This document shows positions 55,697-64,000 of a DNA stretch of 64,000 nucleotides, piece after piece (position 1 is the stretch's first letter; every line of letters begins with the position of its first letter). The translations under genes and the position numbers were made by a program. The notes under the pieces are model-generated. The model worked only from the letters and a program-made list of their open reading frames with translations, was not told the origin of the DNA and ran no database searches. The stretch comes from Dongia sedimenti (lineage in GTDB: Bacteria > Pseudomonadota > Alphaproteobacteria > Dongiales > Dongiaceae), in assembly GCA_030715195.1 (NCBI GenBank), contig JAUYVI010000010.1:1-64000 (forward strand). Reading direction: 5' to 3'.

Positions 55697-57136
55697 CTAA
55701 TGCTTTGAAATTGAGCTTAAATTCCAAGTTTCAGGATGCCAGCTTACGACTTCTGCAACCGGACTCGTGAGGGGGAGAGGGACATGAACGAAGCGCTCCC
55801 TAAGATCAGCGCTCTCCACATCGGCTAGGAAAGCAATTCCGCACTGACCTGAAACGCGGTGAGTGGCTCCGCTCGCGTTGTTGACCTTATTCTGTCGCAG
55901 AGTAAGCGGAACACTGTTCGCGACGATCACGCGGCACCTGCCAGAGAAGCTTGCCTTTGTGCCGAACCTATGCGGCCAGCGCTGTTCTTCGATCGTCGCG
56001 TCGAGGATCGGCGTGAACTGCAGATCAAGCAGCATATTCTCTCGCAGCCACACGCCCGGCTGAAAGCGGCTGAGATCTTCACAGATCAAAGTGGCGATTC
56101 GACCGAAGAAGCCGTGCTCCAGCACCGTCACGGTATCGCCGGCCGTAGTGTATTCGTTGAGCGTCGCCCCCTTACACGGGAGCGCATAGCGATCGCATTG
56201 ATCCTTCTTCAAGTTCCAATGAGTCAATTTTCGATGCTTAAGTATCTCTCTCCCGAGATGATCTAGAACGATGCTTTCGTTGTAAGGCGGCTTGCCGGAG
56301 GCGTCGGGCATGCGCGCCGATCCGGCGAAGACCAGTGAGAGTTGGGAGGTCGGGCCGTGCGCGGCGACCGCGTCTTTAAGCACCGTGATGGCGTCCTCGT
56401 GGATTGCCATTTCGGGAAATGCGATGACGCGGCAATTCTGCTCGCATAGATATTTGACCACATCCTTGATGCGGTCGTGGAGCGGCTGGACCTGGACGTC
56501 GTAGTGTTCCTGTCCCGCGACATCCAAGGTCTTGAAATCAAAGTCCGTGTCTGCTTCGGCGATCGGCGCGATGCCCAGGCTCCAGGGGCGGGTAAGATCG
56601 AAGGGTCGTACGTCCGCGGCCGCTGACATTCTAAAGTCGATCTTGATTTTGATTGGCTTGGTCTCGTCGTCAGGATGCGTCGAGGTGATCTCCCCCGGCA
56701 GTACAAAAAGGGTCTCAAAGAAAGCTGCGGCACCGACGTAATTCTTAGGCATCGACAGCGGATCCTGCCAGCGTCCACCGAGCGGCCTACGCAAGATCAG
56801 CCGATCGCTGGATGCCGCTGAGTCGAAGCGGTGGCGCAGGAGGTACTGGCGTCTTGCTTCCCGCAGTTCGGAATTCAGGCCGGTAGTGGGGCCGGTCATA
56901 GGCAAGAACCAAGCGTCGATCGCTTGGGCTGCGATCACAGCCCGCTGTTGATCCGTCCCCGACCATTTCTCCAGTTCGGCCGCCGCGGTGGGTCTGCTGA
57001 TCAGTCCCACCGCTTCCGCTTCCAGCCTTCCATGTACGAGCGCCGAAGGCGGCGGGATTGCGCCGCCGGCCTCGGTTGCCTGCTCAATGGAATTCCAGAG
57101 CCGTATGAAGAGATCGGCCAGTTCTGTCGAAAGCAT
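55697..57136 (-). CDS. Nitrilase/CN-hydrolase-fold protein (479 aa)
   Basis: Nitrilase-superfamily carbon-nitrogen hydrolase domain in the C-terminal half (about residues 190-450). The catalytic triad is complete: Glu242 in IAFPEMAIHED, Lys303 in KHRKLTHWN and Cys352 in IATLICEDLSRF. The N-terminal 185 residues form an unassigned domain. Substrate is unknown; family reactions include amide or nitrile hydrolysis and amidase coupling to NAD or protein substrates. ATG 57136 chosen (GGGGA 9 nt upstream); a TTG at 57193 would add 19 residues. It lies in the island beside an unknown winged-helix protein. Confidence 0.75.
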   Translation of the reverse strand: MLSTELADLFIRLWNSIEQATEAGGAIPPPSALVHGRLEAEAVGLISRPTAAAELEKWSGTDQQRAVIAAQAIDAWFLPMTGPTTGLNSELREARRQYLLRHRFDSAASSDRLILRRPLGGRWQDPLSMPKNYVGAAAFFETLFVLPGEITSTHPDDETKPIKIKIDFRMSAAADVRPFDLTRPWSLGIAPIAEADTDFDFKTLDVAGQEHYDVQVQPLHDRIKDVVKYLCEQNCRVIAFPEMAIHEDAITVLKDAVAAHGPTSQLSLVFAGSARMPDASGKPPYNESIVLDHLGREILKHRKLTHWNLKKDQCDRYALPCKGATLNEYTTAGDTVTVLEHGFFGRIATLICEDLSRFQPGVWLRENMLLDLQFTPILDATIEEQRWPHRFGTKASFSGRCRVIVANSVPLTLRQNKVNNASGATHRVSGQCGIAFLADVESADLRERFVHVPLPLTSPVAEVVSWHPETWNLSSISKH

Positions 57137-57268
57137 ATAGCGCAATCCCCGATCGCAGATACGGCGCTGCAATACCCTGGATTGAACTACCAATGCCCGG
57201 CTCTGGGTGCAAGTTATTCGCGTTGCCAGCGATGTTGCTATGCGGCATGCGTAGGCGGTGACCTCGGC

Positions 57269-57376: not shown

Positions 57377-59938
57377 TCAAAGCCGCGGGTCGATCGGCTG
57401 GCTTTCCAGCGCCAGCACGCCGAACGCACACTCATGCACCCGGCGCAGCGGCTCGCGGCGGACGAAGCGTTCCAAACCTTCGATGCCGAGGGCGAACTCC
57501 TTCAGGGCCAAGGCGCGCTTGCCGCCGAGGCTGCGTTCGCGCAGGCGCTCAAGGTGCTCGGGCATCGTGTAGTCGGGGCCGTAGATGATGCGCAGGTATT
57601 CGCGGCCGCGGCACTTCAGCGCCGGCTGCACCAAGCCCTTGCCGCCGCGCGTCACGAAGTCGAGGGGCTTCAGCACCAAGCCTTCGCCGCCGCGAGCGGT
57701 GAGCTCCGTCCACCAGTCGCAGAGCGCCGTGCGCGCTTCCGCGTCGGCCAGCGCGACGATGCGGTGCGGCGTCGCGACAAGCAGCGCCGGATCGGCGGCG
57801 GCGAACGCAGCCGCCGTTGCCATGTGCCAGTCGTGGCCACGGTCGATATGCACCTTGCCCTCGCTCGCCAGCACATGGAACGGCGCCAGCTTCAGGTCGT
57901 CGATGCCGGCAACCGGCCAGATGTAATGCTCGACTGCCGCAGCGTAGGCCCCAGCGTTTGCAGCGCGGGTTTCCATGCGGGCGAGCAGCGGCGCCACGTC
58001 GACGCCGCGCGCCGCAGTCTGCCGCAGGACGGCCACGGTGGCGACCGTGGCCGCGCCGGAAGCCACGGCGACCGGGCGGTATTGCTCCGCGATCAGGCCC
58101 TGTGCCTTGGCTGACCAAGGCATCAGTTCCGCGTCGAGGCAGAGCCAATCGCTTCCGAGGTGCTCCCACAATCCGGCAGCGGAGGCCGCCGCGGCGACGC
58201 GCGCCAGCACCGCCTGCTCCAGCGCGTCGTCCTTGAAGAACGGACGGCCGGTGCGGGTATAGATGCGGCCCATGCGATCGTCCGGCACGCCGAAGCGGCG
58301 CAGCGCTGCGTCATGGTCGCGCGCGACGACCAGAACGGCGCGGCTGCCCATGTGCTTCTCTTCGGCGATCACGCGTTCGACGCCGGCGCGCTCGAAATGC
58401 GCCAGCGCCTCATCCGGATGCTCCAGCAGCCGTTCCCGCGCCGAGGTCTCCGAGGGCGACATGGTCGGCGGCAGGTAGATCAGCCAGCGCGGGTCGACGG
58501 CGAAGCGGCTCATCACCTCAAGCGCCGCGGTGGCGTTCTCCGGCTCGATCCGGACATGGCCATAGAGCGCCGTCGTGATCGTGCGCTTGCCGCTGACCTC
58601 GGCGAGATCCAGCAGCGCGTCCGCCTCCTGCTGCGCGCTGCGCCCGGCCGCTTGCGCGGCCAGCGGGCGGACCGGCTCGCTGTAGACCCGCGCCGCCGGC
58701 ACGTCGACCAGCTCCAGCTCCGGATAGCGGAGCGCCGTCAGCTTGCCGCCGAAGACACAGCTGGTATCGACGCAGATGGTGCGGTTGACCCATTCCGCCG
58801 CCGGCGTCGGCACGTGGCCATAGACCACGGTCGCCTTGCCGCGATACTCCGAGGCCCAGTTGAAGCGCACCGGCAGGCCGAACTCATCCGTTTCACCCGT
58901 CGTCTCGCCATAGAGCGCGAAGGAGCGCACCGCGCCGGAGCCGCGGCCGTGCATCTCTTCCTTAAGGCCGGCATGCGCGACCACCAGCTTGCCGCCGTCC
59001 AGCCAATAGTGGCTGCGGAGATCGTCCATGAAGCGGCGTGACTCCTCGATGAACGCGGCGCGGCCGCCTTCATTCAAAGCCTCGAGCTGCGCCATGGTCT
59101 CGGCCAGGCCATGGGTGACCTGCACATTCTTGCCGTTGAGCTTGCGCACCAGGCGCGCCTCGTGGTTGCCCTGGACGCAAAGGGCCTGGCCGGCGGTCAC
59201 CATGTCCATCGCGAGGCGCAGCACCTCTGGCGACTTCGGCCCGCGATCGACCAGATCGCCGAGGAAGATGACGCGGCGGCCGGACTCGTGGACCGGAACC
59301 ACGCGCCCGTCGACCTCGCGCGGGCGATAGCCGAGCTTCTCCAAGAGCGCCGTGAGTTCGTCATGGCAGCCATGGATGTCGCCGATGATGTCGAACGGCC
59401 CCGGGTCCTGGCGACGGTCCGTATAGAGCGGGTCGCGCGTCAGCGTCGCCGCCTCGGCCTCCTCAGGCGTGTTCAGCGTGAAAACATGGCGGAAGCCCTC
59501 GCGCTGCAACCCGCGGATCGAGCGGCGCAGCAGGCGGACTTGGTTGCGCACCACATGGGCGCCGAAATCGCGGTCCGAGCGGCCCTTGTTGCGCGCGATG
59601 CACAGCGCCTCGGGCATGTCGAGCACGATCGCCACCGGCAGCGCATGGTAGCGGCGCGCGAGATCGACCAGCAGGCGGCGGTCCTCCGGCCGCACGTTGG
59701 TGGCATCGACCACCGTCAGCCGGCGAGCGGCAAGGCGCTTGCCGGCGATGAAGTGCAGCACGGCGAAGGCGTCGGGCGTCGCGTTCTGGTCGGTCTCGTC
59801 GTCGGCGACCCAGCCACGCAGCCGGTCCGACGACAGGATCTCCGTCGGCAGGAAGTGGCGCGCGGCGAAGCTCGACTTGCCGGAGCCAGAGACGCCGATC
59901 AGCGCGACCAGGGCGAAATCGGGGATCCTCAGTTGCAT
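57377..59938 (-). CDS. Polynucleotide kinase-phosphatase/ligase Pnkp (853 aa)
   Basis: Bacterial RNA-repair enzyme with three modules in order. The 5'-kinase has a P-loop GVSGSGKS (residues 15-22). The binuclear metallophosphatase has GDIHGCHDEL, GDLVDRGPKS, GNHEARL and VVAHAGL (about 180-325). The C-terminal RNA ligase has its nucleotidyl lysine Lys528 in EEKHMGSRA. It heals 2',3'-cyclic phosphate and 5'-OH breaks and, with Hen1, seals them. Full length for the family (about 850). It overlaps the end of hen1 by 10 nt, showing coupled expression with it. Confidence 0.96.
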   Translation of the reverse strand: MQLRIPDFALVALIGVSGSGKSSFAARHFLPTEILSSDRLRGWVADDETDQNATPDAFAVLHFIAGKRLAARRLTVVDATNVRPEDRRLLVDLARRYHALPVAIVLDMPEALCIARNKGRSDRDFGAHVVRNQVRLLRRSIRGLQREGFRHVFTLNTPEEAEAATLTRDPLYTDRRQDPGPFDIIGDIHGCHDELTALLEKLGYRPREVDGRVVPVHESGRRVIFLGDLVDRGPKSPEVLRLAMDMVTAGQALCVQGNHEARLVRKLNGKNVQVTHGLAETMAQLEALNEGGRAAFIEESRRFMDDLRSHYWLDGGKLVVAHAGLKEEMHGRGSGAVRSFALYGETTGETDEFGLPVRFNWASEYRGKATVVYGHVPTPAAEWVNRTICVDTSCVFGGKLTALRYPELELVDVPAARVYSEPVRPLAAQAAGRSAQQEADALLDLAEVSGKRTITTALYGHVRIEPENATAALEVMSRFAVDPRWLIYLPPTMSPSETSARERLLEHPDEALAHFERAGVERVIAEEKHMGSRAVLVVARDHDAALRRFGVPDDRMGRIYTRTGRPFFKDDALEQAVLARVAAAASAAGLWEHLGSDWLCLDAELMPWSAKAQGLIAEQYRPVAVASGAATVATVAVLRQTAARGVDVAPLLARMETRAANAGAYAAAVEHYIWPVAGIDDLKLAPFHVLASEGKVHIDRGHDWHMATAAAFAAADPALLVATPHRIVALADAEARTALCDWWTELTARGGEGLVLKPLDFVTRGGKGLVQPALKCRGREYLRIIYGPDYTMPEHLERLRERSLGGKRALALKEFALGIEGLERFVRREPLRRVHECAFGVLALESQPIDPRL

Positions 59939-61350
59939 GTGAAGACTCCCATCTGGGTCGGCGTCCCGAGTTCCGGATCTGCCTCGCCGATTCCCTCAAA
60001 GCGCACGGCATAGCCATGGCGCGCCGCGACCGCCGCCGCCCAGGCTTCGAACTCGGCCCGGCTCCATTCGAAGCGATGATCGTGATGGCGCAGAGCATGC
60101 TCCGCCAGCGTCTCGTAGCGCGCGTTGTATTCCTTGTTGGGCGTGGTCACGACGACGTTCTGCGGCCGGGCATCGCCGAACACGGCGGACGCGAGCTGTT
60201 CCAGCATCGGCAAATCGATATGCTCGATCACCTCCACCAGCGCCGCGGCGTCGAAGCCCTTCAGGCGCGCATCGCGATAGGTCAGCGCGCCAAGCAACAG
60301 CTTCACCCGGTCTCTCACCCGCTCCGACAGGCGCTCTAGCTTCAACCGGGCTCCGGCGGCCTCGAGGTCGCGCAGCGACGCATCGACGCCGACGATGCGG
60401 TCGAACTGGCGGTCCTTCAGCAGCGCCTGGATCAGCCGGCCGGATCCGCAGCCGAGGTCGAGCACGCTGCGCGCCCCGGACTCGCGCAGCACCTCGGCCA
60501 CGCGCTGGATGCGCAGGTCATTCAGCCTCGGCGCCGGTGCTTCCGCAGGCGCATCGGTCCCCGCCTCGCCGGTAGCGTCCGCCAGCGCATCTACTTCCGA
60601 CGGCGCCGCCTCGTCGAGCTCGCTCAGGCGTTCGAGCGCGATCCGGGCGAGACGGCGGCCGTGCTTCAGGTAGCGGCGGGTGATGAGGTCGCGCTCCGGA
60701 TGCTGCGCCAGCCAGCCTTCGCCGCGGCGCAGCAGCTTCTCCACTTCATCTTCCGACACCCAATAATGCTTGTCGTCGTCCAGCACCGGGATGAGCACAT
60801 AAAGATGCCCGAGCAGGTCGGCGAGCGGCAGCGTTCCGGACAGCGTCAGGTCCCAATACGGCACGCGGATCTCCGCGTCGCCGGCAACCGGGACCGCGGT
60901 GACCGTGTAGCCGAGCGGCGCGAACAGGCGCTCGATCAGCGCCGCCCCGCCGTTGCAGGCGATCGGCACCAGCTTTGCCTCCAGCGGCAGGGCGGCGTCC
61001 GCCAGTTCCGGCTTCGCCTCGGATTTGCCGGTCATCGCTGAGCCGAAGACCCGGCCGAGCGCCACGCTCAGGAACGACGACGCGGCATAGGGCCGATCAT
61101 TGACGTATTGGGCGAGCAGTCCGCCCTCCCCGCCCTTCGACCCGCCGTCGCGACGCCGGCCGCGCACCAGCGCCACCGGATCGATGTCCAGGATGAGGGC
61201 CGCCGTGCAGCGCTCCGCGCTTGCCTCCGGATAGACGACATGCGCCGTCCCGAAGCCGACATCGAAGCTCTGCGGCCGATCCGGATGCTTGCGCAGCAGG
61301 AAGCCGAGATCCGTGGCCGGCTGGTGGGTCGTGGTCAGGGTGAGCAGCAT
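59929..61350 (-). CDS. 3'-terminal RNA ribose 2'-O-methyltransferase Hen1 (473 aa)
   Basis: Bacterial Hen1, partner of Pnkp in RNA repair. The N-terminal half (about 1-240) is the ligase-activating domain found in bacterial Hen1, with LTLTTTHQPATDLGFLLRKH and YVNDRPYAASSFLSVALGRV typical of it. The C-terminal half is a SAM methyltransferase with LDLGCGSGRLIQALL, the metal-binding VEVIEHIDLP and TTPNKEYN, and HHDHRFEWSR. It methylates the 2'-OH at the break so that the repaired RNA resists re-cleavage. It ends by overlapping pnkp and lies 43 bp after the 122-aa gene. Confidence 0.95.
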   Translation of the reverse strand: MLLTLTTTHQPATDLGFLLRKHPDRPQSFDVGFGTAHVVYPEASAERCTAALILDIDPVALVRGRRRDGGSKGGEGGLLAQYVNDRPYAASSFLSVALGRVFGSAMTGKSEAKPELADAALPLEAKLVPIACNGGAALIERLFAPLGYTVTAVPVAGDAEIRVPYWDLTLSGTLPLADLLGHLYVLIPVLDDDKHYWVSEDEVEKLLRRGEGWLAQHPERDLITRRYLKHGRRLARIALERLSELDEAAPSEVDALADATGEAGTDAPAEAPAPRLNDLRIQRVAEVLRESGARSVLDLGCGSGRLIQALLKDRQFDRIVGVDASLRDLEAAGARLKLERLSERVRDRVKLLLGALTYRDARLKGFDAAALVEVIEHIDLPMLEQLASAVFGDARPQNVVVTTPNKEYNARYETLAEHALRHHDHRFEWSRAEFEAWAAAVAARHGYAVRFEGIGEADPELGTPTQMGVFTCN

Positions 61351-61393: not shown

Positions 61394-61762
61394 TCACTCG
61401 GGACGTTGGTCCGTCCCGAAGGAAGCGATCACCTCGATCTTACCGACGATGTTAGCATTGAATGCTTCAAGTTCGTCGGCAGGGATCCAATACTCGCGAT
61501 GCTGGGAGCCGCCGGCCTCCTGGACCGGGTAGCGGTCCAGAAAGTCACGCGACACCGCGAAGCGGGTGACGAAGCCGGAACCGGATGCCTTGACGTTCCA
61601 GTCGCGTGCGATCTTCACCGCATAGTCCTCGGTGAGCACCGGATAGAAGATCGGCTGCTCCGGCAGGCGCGGCGGAAAGGCGCTGAACCCGCTCTCGCGG
61701 ATCAGCTCCAGTTCCTTGGGACCGACCGGTCGGAAGAGAGTCACGGTCTGCATTGTACTCAT
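61394..61762 (-). CDS. Conserved small protein in the RNA-repair operon (122 aa)
   Basis: Beginning MSTMQTVTLFRPVGPKELEL, with ESGFSAFPPRLPEQPIFYPV, EDYAVKIARDWNV and RYPVQEAGGSQHREYWIPAD. I recall homologues annotated as ADP-ribosylation/crystallin J1 proteins, a label with little evidence. No catalytic motif is obvious. It sits between rsr and hen1 in the same operon, 64 bp after rsr, so it may be an RNA-repair accessory. ATG 61762 chosen with AAGG close by; ATG 61753 would be three residues shorter. The frame continues upstream to 61822 without conservation. Confidence 0.75.
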   Translation of the reverse strand: MSTMQTVTLFRPVGPKELELIRESGFSAFPPRLPEQPIFYPVLTEDYAVKIARDWNVKASGSGFVTRFAVSRDFLDRYPVQEAGGSQHREYWIPADELEAFNANIVGKIEVIASFGTDQRPE

Positions 61763-61826: not shown

Positions 61827-63428
61827 TTAGCGCCGGATGAAGTCGGCGATCACCGCCGGTGCAGCGGCGTCGAAACCGACCACATCCAGCATGCCGGCAT
61901 CGTTCGGATCCGCGATCGAGAATCCGTTCGACACCATCCCGACCACCACCAGCTTGGCGGCGATCCCGCTGCGCTCGCGGTACTGGCGCAGGGCCTGGAC
62001 CGGGTGCACCTTGCCCGCCCAGGTCTCGCTGTCGGTCAACGCCACGAAGGCATCGACCTTCAGCCCCCGCTCCAGCGCGTAGAGCATCGGCAGCGCGCAG
62101 TCGGTCCGGCCAAACGGCAGGTTGCCGACCGCCTTCACCGCCTGGTCCAGCCGCATGGCCGGCGAGAGAGTGAGCGGCGCCATTTCGGTTCCGCCCTCCC
62201 AACTCGCGCCATTCGCCGCGGTGAAGCCCACCAGGTGGGTCTTCGCCTCGACGCGTGCCGTCACCAGCGCCAGGGCTGCCGACGCGTCGCGCGGCGTCAG
62301 GGAGGAACCGGCCACCCGGCCCACCCCCATCGACCCCGAAACGTCGAGCGCCAGCAGCAGGCGATTGCCGGTCGGCTCGACGTTCCGGAACGCCGCGTAG
62401 AACGCGTCGTTCAAGGCGTCGACGACCTGCGGCACCGGCTCCCAGCGCAGCCCGCCCTTGTCCCCGCGTCCCTCCACATAGGTGCGGAGCGCGAGCAGAA
62501 TCGCAAGCGGGTGCAATCGCGCCTTGCGGATTCGCTCCGCATCGCGCAGCGTCTCCGTGACGGCCTCGACCGCCGGCTCGAACGGCTTCAGCACGCCGAC
62601 CGACGTCAGCTTGGCGAGGTTGCGGACCAGGGCCGTCATCGGCATGCGCTCCAGGAGCGCCTGCCAGACTTGCGGCTCGTTCAGCAACCCGGTCGGCACG
62701 GTCTCACGCGGCAGATCGTAGGTACGGATCAACCGCGCCGCCTCGACCGAATCTTCAGCCTTGGCGAGCGCCATCGCGCCGCCGACGATAGCCGGCAGGT
62801 TCTCACCCGCCGTTCCGCGGCAGATCCAGTTGAACAGATCGCGCCGGGCCGGTTCGTCGGTCAGCGGGTGGGCGAGCCGCAACAGGTCGCGGTGCGTCCA
62901 CCCTTCGCGCTGCCGATACTTCACCGCCTGGTAGGCGAGCTGCTCGACCGGCCGCGCCAGGTACCAGCGGGCCACGGCACGCCGCAGCCCGCGGCCCCAG
63001 CCGCGCATCGCCTGGACGGTCTCGGCGAACTGGAACAGCTGCGTTCCGGTCCGTGCGATCCGCGGCAGGGCGGCGAAGGCCGCCTGCTTGGTCGCCTCGT
63101 CGCCGAGCGCCGTCGCCAGAGCGAGCGCGAAGATCGCCGGCGCCGGCTTCGGCGCGCGACCCGCTTCGATCATCTCTGCGATCCGCGCGACCGCGCGCGA
63201 ACCGTCGGCCGCGATACAACGCATCACCGCCTCGGCGTTCTCGACCGTCAGCTTGCGCGCGCCGGCATAATAGCTCCCGCCCTCGGTCCCGAGGACGAGG
63301 AAGCGGTCCAGCCGCGTCCAGTCATCGACCGGGAAGGCATAGCCCCCGGCCGAGTTGGCCACGGTCCCGGCGATCGGCTCCGACTGTGGCGTGCGCCGCA
63401 GCGAGAACAACTTTGCGTACTTCATCAT
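61827..63428 (-). CDS. rsr: TROVE-domain protein Rsr, bacterial Ro60 (533 aa)
   Basis: Ring-shaped RNA-binding protein, bacterial counterpart of vertebrate Ro60, which binds Y RNAs and misfolded or damaged RNA. The helical-repeat TROVE domain spans about residues 15-340 (YAFPVDDWTRLDRFLVLGTEGGSYY start), and a von Willebrand A domain follows with MIDAS motif DVSGSMG (362-368) and further ligands in GRTDCALP and ALTDSET. ATG 63428 chosen with GGAGGAGG just upstream; a longer frame upstream would run into the Y-RNA array. It is the first protein gene of the operon after four Y-RNA-like genes. Confidence 0.95.
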   Translation of the reverse strand: MMKYAKLFSLRRTPQSEPIAGTVANSAGGYAFPVDDWTRLDRFLVLGTEGGSYYAGARKLTVENAEAVMRCIAADGSRAVARIAEMIEAGRAPKPAPAIFALALATALGDEATKQAAFAALPRIARTGTQLFQFAETVQAMRGWGRGLRRAVARWYLARPVEQLAYQAVKYRQREGWTHRDLLRLAHPLTDEPARRDLFNWICRGTAGENLPAIVGGAMALAKAEDSVEAARLIRTYDLPRETVPTGLLNEPQVWQALLERMPMTALVRNLAKLTSVGVLKPFEPAVEAVTETLRDAERIRKARLHPLAILLALRTYVEGRGDKGGLRWEPVPQVVDALNDAFYAAFRNVEPTGNRLLLALDVSGSMGVGRVAGSSLTPRDASAALALVTARVEAKTHLVGFTAANGASWEGGTEMAPLTLSPAMRLDQAVKAVGNLPFGRTDCALPMLYALERGLKVDAFVALTDSETWAGKVHPVQALRQYRERSGIAAKLVVVGMVSNGFSIADPNDAGMLDVVGFDAAAPAVIADFIRR

Positions 63429-63453
63429 CGTCTCCTCCTCCTTCCCAACAAGC

Positions 63454-63561
63454 GCGGCGGACATGTGTCTGGTCGAGGCATCGCCGCTTTCACGGCGCCG
63501 CTCCGGGAGGTGCATCGCACCCACCACGGTCCAAGGTAATCCTCGCCCTCCGGCCCGCCGC
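63454..63561 (-). ncRNA. Y-RNA-like RNA 4 (about 108 nt)
   Basis: On the minus strand GCGGCGGGC pairs with GTCCGCCGC (one G-U), enclosing an internal loop and an inner CGAGG/CCTCG stem. The 5' strand carries GGGCCG-N6-GAGGATTA, the motif shared by the four units. The loop holds small hairpins, for example GGTGC-gat-GCACC. It lies 25 nt upstream of the rsr ATG, the usual place for a Ro-bound Y RNA. Ends are inferred from pairing; no promoter is mapped. Confidence 0.7.
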
Positions 63562-63583
63562 CGGACTCCATCTCTCCCGTTAT

Positions 63584-63673
63584 CCAGTGGCGGACGTGAA
63601 CCGATGAGGGCAATGCGGCACTTGGCAAGCGCCGCACCTTGGCAAGGTAACCCTCATTCATCGGCCCGCCTGG
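63584..63673 (-). ncRNA. Y-RNA-like RNA 3 (about 90 nt)
   Basis: GGCGGGC pairs with GTCCGCC (one G-U) and CCA with TGG outside it; an inner ATGAGGG/CCCTCAT stem of 7 bp follows an internal loop. The 5' strand has GGGCCG-N6-GAGGGTTA. The loop contains TGCGGC/GCCGCA and CCTTGGCAAGG hairpins. It is separated by 22 nt from each neighbouring unit. Ends are set by the stem. Confidence 0.72.
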
Positions 63674-63695
63674 CCGGACACTTCGAACGCGCGGC

Positions 63696-63794
63696 GGCGC
63701 GGGCGTGTGGGACCGAGGGCGCGACACCTTGCGGTGCTGGGGGATGCCTCCCCCGTCGCCATGTGCAAATAACCCTCGCCGATCGGCCCGCGCC
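63696..63794 (-). ncRNA. Y-RNA-like RNA 2 (about 99 nt)
   Basis: GGCGCGGGC pairs perfectly with GCCCGCGCC; an inner CGAGGG/CCCTCG stem follows the internal loop. The 5' strand has GGGCCG-N6-GAGGGTTA. The distal part folds as a three-way junction: GCGAC/GTCGC closing CACC-ttgc-GGTG and GGGGG-atgcct-CCCCC. No tRNA-like arms are present. It is 22 nt from its neighbours. Confidence 0.72.
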
Positions 63795-63816
63795 AATCGC
63801 ATCTTCAGTCCAGTGA

Positions 63817-63955
63817 CGGCACGGGCGTGTCATGCGTGAAGGCGTCTTGGTGCTCTACCTCTGAGCTACGGGCCCGTAAGATGTTGGACCCGACGGGATT
63901 CGAACCCGCGACCTCCCCGTTATGAGCGGTAACCTTCACACGCCGGCCCGTGCCG
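63817..63955 (-). ncRNA. YrlA-like Y RNA 1 with permuted tRNA domain (about 139 nt)
   Basis: CGGCACGGGC pairs with GCCCGTGCCG (10 bp); an inner GTGAAGG/CCTTCAC stem follows. The 5' strand has GGGCCG-N6-GAAGGTTA. The distal part is a tRNA in permuted order: a CCG-CTCATAA-CGG anticodon-like hairpin, T arm GCGGGTTCGAATCCCGT, acceptor 3' strand CGGGTCC, a 10-nt loop AACATCTTAC, acceptor 5' strand GGGCCCG, then D arm GCTCAGAGGTAGAGC. The acceptor strands pair perfectly over 7 bp (one G-U). This is the known YrlA layout in which the tRNA ends are joined and the Y stem replaces the anticodon side. A normal tRNA gene cannot read this way. Confidence 0.85.
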
Positions 63956-64000
63956 ACGACGGACAGAATCAATCCTCCGTTTCTCCTTCAACTTGTTGGC

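Follow-up and report, generated by a model that had tools for sequence, protein, structure and literature searches.

The window analysed here spans the opening 64 kb of a contig of 182 kb in the 6.1-Mb genome of the alphaproteobacterium Dongia sedimenti, and on its minus strand, directly ahead of rsr, the gene for the bacterial Ro60 protein, it carries a tandem array of four units that are almost certainly Y RNAs of Rsr, the binding itself being presumed from the known family. Their docking stems are conserved as pairs across rsr loci, the distal parts of the family resemble anticodon loops, and the RNA-repair genes hen1 and pnkp are found on the far side of rsr. We regard the units as the Y RNA genes of an rsr/hen1/pnkp RNA-repair cluster, and in the best reading of them, to which we incline by a modest degree, their products would be tRNA surrogates docked on Rsr. 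The likeness of the distal parts to anticodon loops is the new point; Y RNAs as a type were already known, and four of them in tandem are not unusual.

The array and its docking stem

Units 1 to 4 occupy positions 63817..63955 (139 nucleotides, nt), 63696..63794 (99 nt), 63587..63672 (86 nt) and 63454..63561 (108 nt) of the minus strand, and the start codon of rsr lies 25 nt past the end of unit 4 on the same strand. An earlier note on this DNA had described four head-to-tail Y-RNA-like units ahead of rsr, and all of them are present; its spacing of 22 nt is exact for the first gap and nearly right for the other two, which measure 23 and 25 nt, and the 5' motif it proposed, GGGCCG-N6-GARGRTTA, is matched in each unit. 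Unit 1 combines an Rsr-type double stem with a circularly permuted tRNA-like body, units 2 and 4 bear two distal hairpins on an Rsr-type stem, and unit 3 bears one or two anticodon-like hairpins on such a stem. A structural descriptor, composed of the outer stem, the inner stem, CAY ahead of the 3' outer strand and UUA behind the inner 5' strand, gives scores of 64.7, 58.7, 50.7 and 49.7 for units 1 to 4, the best control being 48.2 in 34,320 Markov-resampled bases. For a covariance model, R1, 41 units from other loci were taken and the window units excluded; a search of 279,799 bases with it recovered the held-out units 2 (37.2 bits, E 2e-4), 3 (32.1 bits, E 2e-3) and 4 (37.0 bits, E 2.3e-4). 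A stricter detector gave no match on either strand of window positions 1-60000, and of the 119 units that a detector blind to position reported, 116 are no more than 1.5 kb away from rsr.

The relatives used for comparison came from ten loci in a first genome search and from 2 of 17, 4 of 385 and 4 of 199 genomes in three others, the central genome included; among plasmid and phage records, 59 and 348 gave a match, of which a few were taken into the comparison, and in one search 80 of 473 relatives were kept. The order to which D. sedimenti belongs contains 17 genomes, all of one family. At a descriptor score of at least 49, and after locus L031 had been dropped for lying on the same contig as L004, the collection amounts to 61 units at 21 rsr loci, that of the window included. 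One contig of a metagenome-assembled genome (MAG) labelled 'Anaerolineae' (L003) has nearly the same rsr region as the alphaproteobacterial L024, by transfer or misbinning.

Covariation in the outer and inner stems, the check named by the earlier note, was found in both. When partners were permuted among the units of each locus, own partners paired better than exchanged ones in the outer stem (2.39 versus 2.01 of 3 positions, with 0 of 5000 permutations as high) and in the inner stem (5.59 versus 4.79 of 7, 0 of 2000 as high), in a set of 61 pairs whose 5' and 3' anchors were picked by sequence alone and some of which are wrongly anchored. Alignment A1 comprises 41 units; the other 20 of the 61 cores, namely the four window units and 16 that were near copies or outliers, were omitted from it. 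Both sides have changed in 14 of its 18 stem pairs and 94.7% of the cells pair, compared with 41-45% when the strands are slid; the permutation is the fairer test, because the aligned units had been chosen for pairing. The 5' and 3' ends of the units form a long stem with an internal loop that is kept by covariation, as in Y RNAs of Rsr. Descriptor, pairing and covariance model together support the proposal of Y RNAs of one Rsr, with a common docking stem and varied distal parts; the further idea of that note, that the varied loops serve distinct tethers or clients, may hold as well. The notion that four units are exceptional was not borne out: at least three units occur in 14 and at least four in 9 of the 21 rsr loci, and seven canonical YrlA loci hold 5, 3, 6, 5, 4, 3 and 6 core motifs, by motif count alone.

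Several results weigh against the assignment or narrow its base. The score of unit 4 is barely above the best control, and the strict detector sees three of the four window units and misses this one. R1 did not report unit 1 in the 279,799 bases, gave short GC hairpins and no unit as a full match when run on the flank with its filters off, and in a search of the whole genome recovered only units 2 and 3, with E values of 0.004 and 0.04. With the strict detector 49 of 105 rsr loci yielded no unit, and the sample consequently leans to GC-rich, conserved cores.

Anticodon-like loops in the distal parts

The body of unit 1 runs in the order anticodon arm, T arm, acceptor stem and D arm, which is that of a tRNA circularly permuted and opened between positions 26 and 27. 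Its anticodon-arm core, CCG-CTCATAA-CGG (CAU, 63917..63929, minus strand), is an exact 13-nt match to the host tRNA-Met(CAU) from position 29, and was not part of the earlier description. The T arm (63893..63909), the acceptor-like stem CGGGTCC / GGGCCCG with a 10-nt loop (63869..63892) and the D arm (63852..63866) follow on the same strand, as assigned from sequence and fold; the acceptor strand GGGCCCG is also present in tRNA-Met(CAU), and the T and D arms match host tRNA-Glu and tRNA-Ala exactly over 16 and 15 nt, respectively. In unit 3 the first hairpin, ACC-TTGCCAA-GGT (63636..63648, minus strand), matches the host tRNA-Gly(GCC) exactly over 13 nt from position 28, and the same 7-nt loop recurs 17 nt further on, on a stem of seven pairs, in the second hairpin, GCGGCGC-TTGCCAA-GTGCCGC (63615..63635, minus strand). 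In 60 shuffles of unit 1 or 3 compared with the 34 host tRNAs, the longest match was 11 nt. The tRNA-like module of T, acceptor and D arms is present in unit 1 and absent from units 2-4, and the claim that the latter lack it holds for the T and D arms and fails for unit 3 in respect of its tRNA-Gly(GCC) anticodon-arm core with the repeated loop. Searched for relatives, the distal loops of unit 2 scored none above the shuffled range, those of unit 4 reached 30 at best, between the shuffled maxima of two runs (28 and 31), and those of unit 3 reached 26, equal to or just past the shuffled maxima of 26 and 24.

In order to look at the family by structure alone, hairpins of three or more pairs were collected if their first base lay no more than two bases from the A of the conserved GGUUA, near-identical contigs having been removed beforehand. 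Loops of 7 nt were clearly in excess: among the T-arm units 30 of 47 had one (mean 8.1 and maximum 15 when shuffled), and among those lacking a T arm 38 of 72 (mean 7.6, maximum 15), with 100 shuffles in each case. The T-arm hairpins have U33 in 26, a purine at position 37 in 25 and A38 in 24 of the 30; among the 38 others the corresponding counts are 27, 27 and 17, and A37 occurs in 24. Of 43 loops near rsr with U33 and a purine at 37, two have A34, and position 37 is A in 29 of the 31 with A36 or U36. Finally, a library of 227 tRNAs, one loop of which derives from a unit itself, contains an identical loop for 26 of 44 such loops, compared with 12.7 (maximum 22, 2000 draws) for random triplets and 1.0 (maximum 5) for shuffled sequences.

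Units with a T arm have the order anticodon arm, variable region, T arm, 3' acceptor strand, loop, 5' acceptor strand and D arm, a tRNA permuted at 26/27, and a linear form on phage-like contigs begins with the tRNA acceptor and D arm, continues through the Y 3' strand, a short loop and the Y 5' strand, and ends with the anticodon arm, the T arm and the 3' acceptor strand, in some cases with an encoded CCA; both circular orders thus seem to share 26/27 as the point where the Rsr stem meets a whole tRNA. There are 24 linear candidates, with the top score in 15, and all nine that have the hairpin show U33, a purine at 37 and A38. Eight linear chimeras (from L119, L089 with two, L090, L097, L099, L135 and L157) were read and folded, and the acceptor stem and T arm form in the free fold of all eight, the Y stem being only partial in those from L119, L097 and L135. 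In a further permutation, seen by eye, the opening of the tRNA-like body falls in the D loop and the anticodon-like hairpin is kept (a unit of L029 at -614, L023 near rsr, L406 and L410). In one unit shared by three Cellulomonas species (92% mean column identity) the surroundings of the loop are constant and the triplet with position 37 reads GTG-G, CGA-A and GTT-A, which accounts for four of the seven columns that vary within the first 60 in these three sequences of a single unit; the displayed loop seems to have been swapped in evolution.

Against a selected display of anticodon loops stand a number of observations. Units 2 and 4 of the window have neither an anticodon-like loop nor a comparable match to the 34 host tRNAs. 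Loops of 9 nt are raised as well (21 units with a T arm, 20 others), an excess put down to 7-nt loops whose innermost pair is ignored; the arms mostly have three or four pairs, compared with five in tRNA; and U33 with a purine at 37 was a prerequisite for the counts of A34, of positions 36-37 and of library matches. A second set, obtained with two DNA core patterns that matched viral contigs, gave 97 further units at 48 of 190 loci examined and none at 142, all among the matches listed; seven loci on contigs already used and three duplicate units were dropped, L274, a piece of a used contig, was kept, and loci above L363 were left out. Within it the signal is weaker, with 7-nt loops in 14 of 39 T-arm units (5.8 when shuffled, maximum 9, 60 shuffles; U33 in 11 and A38 in 10 of the 14) and in 13 of 58 others (6.4, maximum 11; U33 in 7 of 13), so that the excess recurs among T-arm units and is marginal among the others. 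In canonical YrlA cores it is not significant (9 of 32 versus 5.1, maximum 11, 300 shuffles), and two canonical YrlA units carry a tRNA-Lys-like CTTTTAA loop. In the literature searched, available in excerpts, Y RNAs are nowhere said to carry an anticodon loop, which is weak evidence of absence.

Minimum-energy folds of whole units, which are blind to tertiary contacts, modifications and protein, point in two directions. Units that lack a T arm form the anticodon stem in 15 of 21 cases, compared with 27 of 34 host tRNAs; only 6 of 23 units with a T arm and none of the eight linear chimeras form it, and these low counts, like the folds of units 1 and 3, in neither of which it appears, count on the opposing side. 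In unit 1 the segment 63917..63929 pairs otherwise, and a cloverleaf with the anticodon arm costs 2.7 kcal/mol; unit 3 folds into a single longer hairpin whose energy hardly differs (-44.9 versus -44.7). For the stripped units these folds speak in favour of the hairpin; for the tRNA-like ones folding does not prove it. Taken together, we consider it likely that the display of anticodon loops has been selected for in this family of Y RNAs, a judgement that was held a little more firmly before the folds were checked.

Gene neighbourhood of the array

Read along the minus strand, the region consists of a terminator-like site, a tRNA-Arg(ACG) gene, the four units, rsr, an open reading frame (ORF) of 122 amino acids (aa), hen1 and pnkp. 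There are two terminator-like sites in the region, with 0.9 expected, and a search of the array region for a consensus promoter found none; judging by the spacing alone, the array is probably transcribed jointly ahead of rsr. At another locus a gene for an XRE-type regulator diverges from the array (L015:3942-4400, minus strand), as it does in L025 and L030 by sequence likeness only, which suggests a regulated promoter at such arrays.

The tRNA-Arg(ACG) gene at the head, detected by ARAGORN on the flank, lies on the minus strand at 63997-64073 of the contig (C2; L002:7998-8074), its last four bases, GCCA, being positions 63997..64000 of the window. It stands 41 nt ahead of unit 1, is an extra and divergent copy, 78-79% identical to the other tRNA-Arg(ACG) of the genome (C24:413919), and has by eye one mismatched acceptor pair (C2-A71). 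Inside the window ARAGORN reports no tRNA gene, and the units are not linear cloverleaf tRNA genes. The head tRNA was considered as the mark of a mobile island and this was rejected: its 3' end is not repeated in the window at up to three mismatches, and no att site was shown. In genome G014, from another genus of the same family, rsr (77% identity) is accompanied by five units, the same 122-aa ORF and an upstream tRNA-His, and a DNA search with this tRNA-His matched only itself. Elsewhere rsr is found inside large tRNA clusters, with 38 ARAGORN calls (one of them a tmRNA) in Minicystis rosea and 34 in an actinomycete MAG (L007, L012).

The rsr gene (61827..63428, minus strand, 533 aa), preceded by the purine-rich ribosome-binding stretch GGAAGGAGGAGG, matches the Pfam families TROVE and vWA_Ro60 and NCBIfam RNA-bind_Rsr, the latter with 539.6 bits, under the equivalog cut-off of 900. 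The 122-aa ORF (61394..61762, minus strand) has no match in Pfam, NCBIfam, PADLOC or PHROGs, and a relative adjoins rsr in a second genus (L015:6762-7112, 73% identity over 115 aa); its best PDB sequence match, a lipase at E 0.05, was taken as chance. The adjacent genes hen1 (59929..61350, minus strand), for an RNA-repair 2'-O-methyltransferase, and pnkp (57377..59938, minus strand), for an enzyme that heals and seals RNA ends, are both above their equivalog cut-offs (TIGR04074, 667 bits versus 340; TIGR04075, 1360.8 bits versus 750), as in a Pnkp-Hen1 operon. A gene for a nitrilase-like carbon-nitrogen hydrolase follows immediately 3' of pnkp (55697-57193, minus strand). Among eight neighbourhood proteins compared with PADLOC only one matched strongly (E 1.4e-14), a ThsB-like protein with a TIR domain encoded some 7 kb upstream, and the defence-model matches upstream (L002:11505-15882) consist of this TIR-domain protein with an AAA ATPase and a phosphoesterase, both weak.

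Possible roles and comparison with known systems

In the reading that we favour, the common two-part base stem, whose pairing emerges from comparison, would dock each RNA on Rsr, as expected from the known family, and would hold the distal end as a tRNA surrogate. Unit 1 would be a permuted tRNA body that copies the anticodon-arm core of the host tRNA-Met, unit 3 a stripped unit showing the anticodon loop of tRNA-Gly(GCC), and units 2 and 4 hairpin pairs to which no target can be put by name. The most probable way of working would be that the Rsr ribonucleoproteins (RNPs) expose parts of tRNAs, chiefly anticodon loops, to enzymes of tRNA cleavage or repair. They would either lure anticodon nucleases off the real tRNAs as decoys or unite damaged RNA with Rsr and the Pnkp-Hen1 machine under attack by toxins or phages. 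A decoy, rather than docking or decay, is a possible role that we place somewhat below an even chance. More tentatively, we may hypothesize that rsr-linked arrays are panels of swappable anticodon stem-loops, made of whole permuted or linear tRNAs and of stripped arms, which serve as Rsr-docked decoys against anticodon nucleases and whose triplets track the nucleases that a lineage or phage meets.

The units could instead be ordinary Y RNAs that tie Rsr to PNPase or other partners, their anticodon loops being leftovers of tRNA genes devoid of a role. Rsr-Y RNA-PNPase is the studied bacterial mechanism (PMC7790460, PMC8394870; these and the papers cited below are drawn on in excerpt), the T and D arms of unit 1 do resemble copies of tRNA-Glu and tRNA-Ala, and both the scarcity of the anticodon stem in free folds of T-arm units and the lack of a significant loop in canonical YrlA cores agree with it. 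We nevertheless think it rather unlikely, as the loops are also found in units without a T arm, where they fold, and as triplet changes in a constant frame, such as those in Cellulomonas, are not expected of a mere relic. A different role for the surrogate would be that of a pseudo-substrate recruiting Pnkp-Hen1, or RtcB or RlaP, to broken RNAs held by Rsr. Here the succession of rsr, hen1 and pnkp in the window, the presence of RlaP near the array in L015 and L025 and a published description in which TROVE proteins and a tRNA-like partner serve as an RNA-repair platform (PMC7824862) speak in favour, whereas no relative of hen1 or pnkp was found at E 1e-4 within the limited flanks of the other compared loci; these genes are consequently not a fixed part of such arrays, and we hold the proposal to be unlikely. 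That the units are not RNAs at all, and represent the start of a protein gene or a chance repeat, is highly improbable: an open frame of 125 aa (63425-63802) overlaps units 2-4, and against it stand the unit-specific pairing across loci, the motif-by-motif repeat and the silence of the stricter detector in positions 1-60000.

Should the distal parts of the RNAs mimic anticodon loops, a function of Y RNAs beyond the tethering of PNPase would become testable by changing the triplet. If true, the surrogate reading would also link Ro60 RNPs, phage tRNAs and RNA repair in one theme of defence and counter-defence and offer a reason why phages carry rsr. In mycobacteriophages, the region of the Y RNA array bears 'hypothetical protein' features in 31 of the 40 records listed among 195 matched phage records.

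The closest known relative is YrlA (Rfam RF02553), which shares with the window the Rsr-type base stem, the permuted order of T arm, acceptor and D arm in unit 1, and the occurrence in tandem sets of three to six core motifs, but differs in its core, AAUGC..CUACA as opposed to GGGCCG..GGUUAYC. The Rfam consensus has no anticodon arm; exactly there unit 1, when aligned to it, has an insertion of 12 nt, which are 12 of the 13 nt of its anticodon core. Unit 1 scores 43.7 bits, under the gathering threshold of 69, and units 2-4 are not reported as YrlA. This score was dropped as proof: in a search of 398 genomes, 20 of 21 loci between 41.8 and 46.6 bits (L412-L432) hold tandem tRNA genes, mostly tRNA-Lys with tRNA-Asn and tRNA-Val (L412-L419 and L421-L432; L420 holds none and is unexplained), and mid-range YrlA matches are for that reason unreliable.

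The rsr-yrlBA-rtcBA locus of Salmonella and the Rsr-Y RNA-PNPase machine (RYPER) of Deinococcus also have Rsr with Y RNAs, in Salmonella in a context of RNA repair (PMC7790460, PMC8394870); the tRNA-like domain is described there with D, T and acceptor arms, an anticodon arm going unmentioned in the excerpts, and the repair genes of the window are instead pnkp and hen1. The tRNA-like domain of YrlA, itself uncut, has been suggested as a possible competitive inhibitor of an anticodon nuclease (Hughes et al., PMC7790460), and the anticodon loops of the units would make such a decoy specific. The Pnkp-Hen1 systems that repair ribotoxin damage (PMC4411300) employ the same or related enzymes as those of the window; in that text the terms 'Y RNA' and 'Ro60' occur 0 times, and in the window the two enzymes are encoded behind an rsr array with an extra tRNA-Arg(ACG) at its head. 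As tRNA-Arg cleaved by colicin D was a test substrate of the related Pnkp1-Rnl-Hen1 complex (PMC4411300), this extra gene fits a supply of tRNA under attack. Phage-encoded tRNAs that counter the cleavage of host tRNAs (PMC7824862) offer a similar supply, as do some rsr loci (Minicystis, the actinomycete MAG); the units, in contrast, consist of permuted or stripped parts of tRNAs set on an Rsr-type stem and are not tRNAs.
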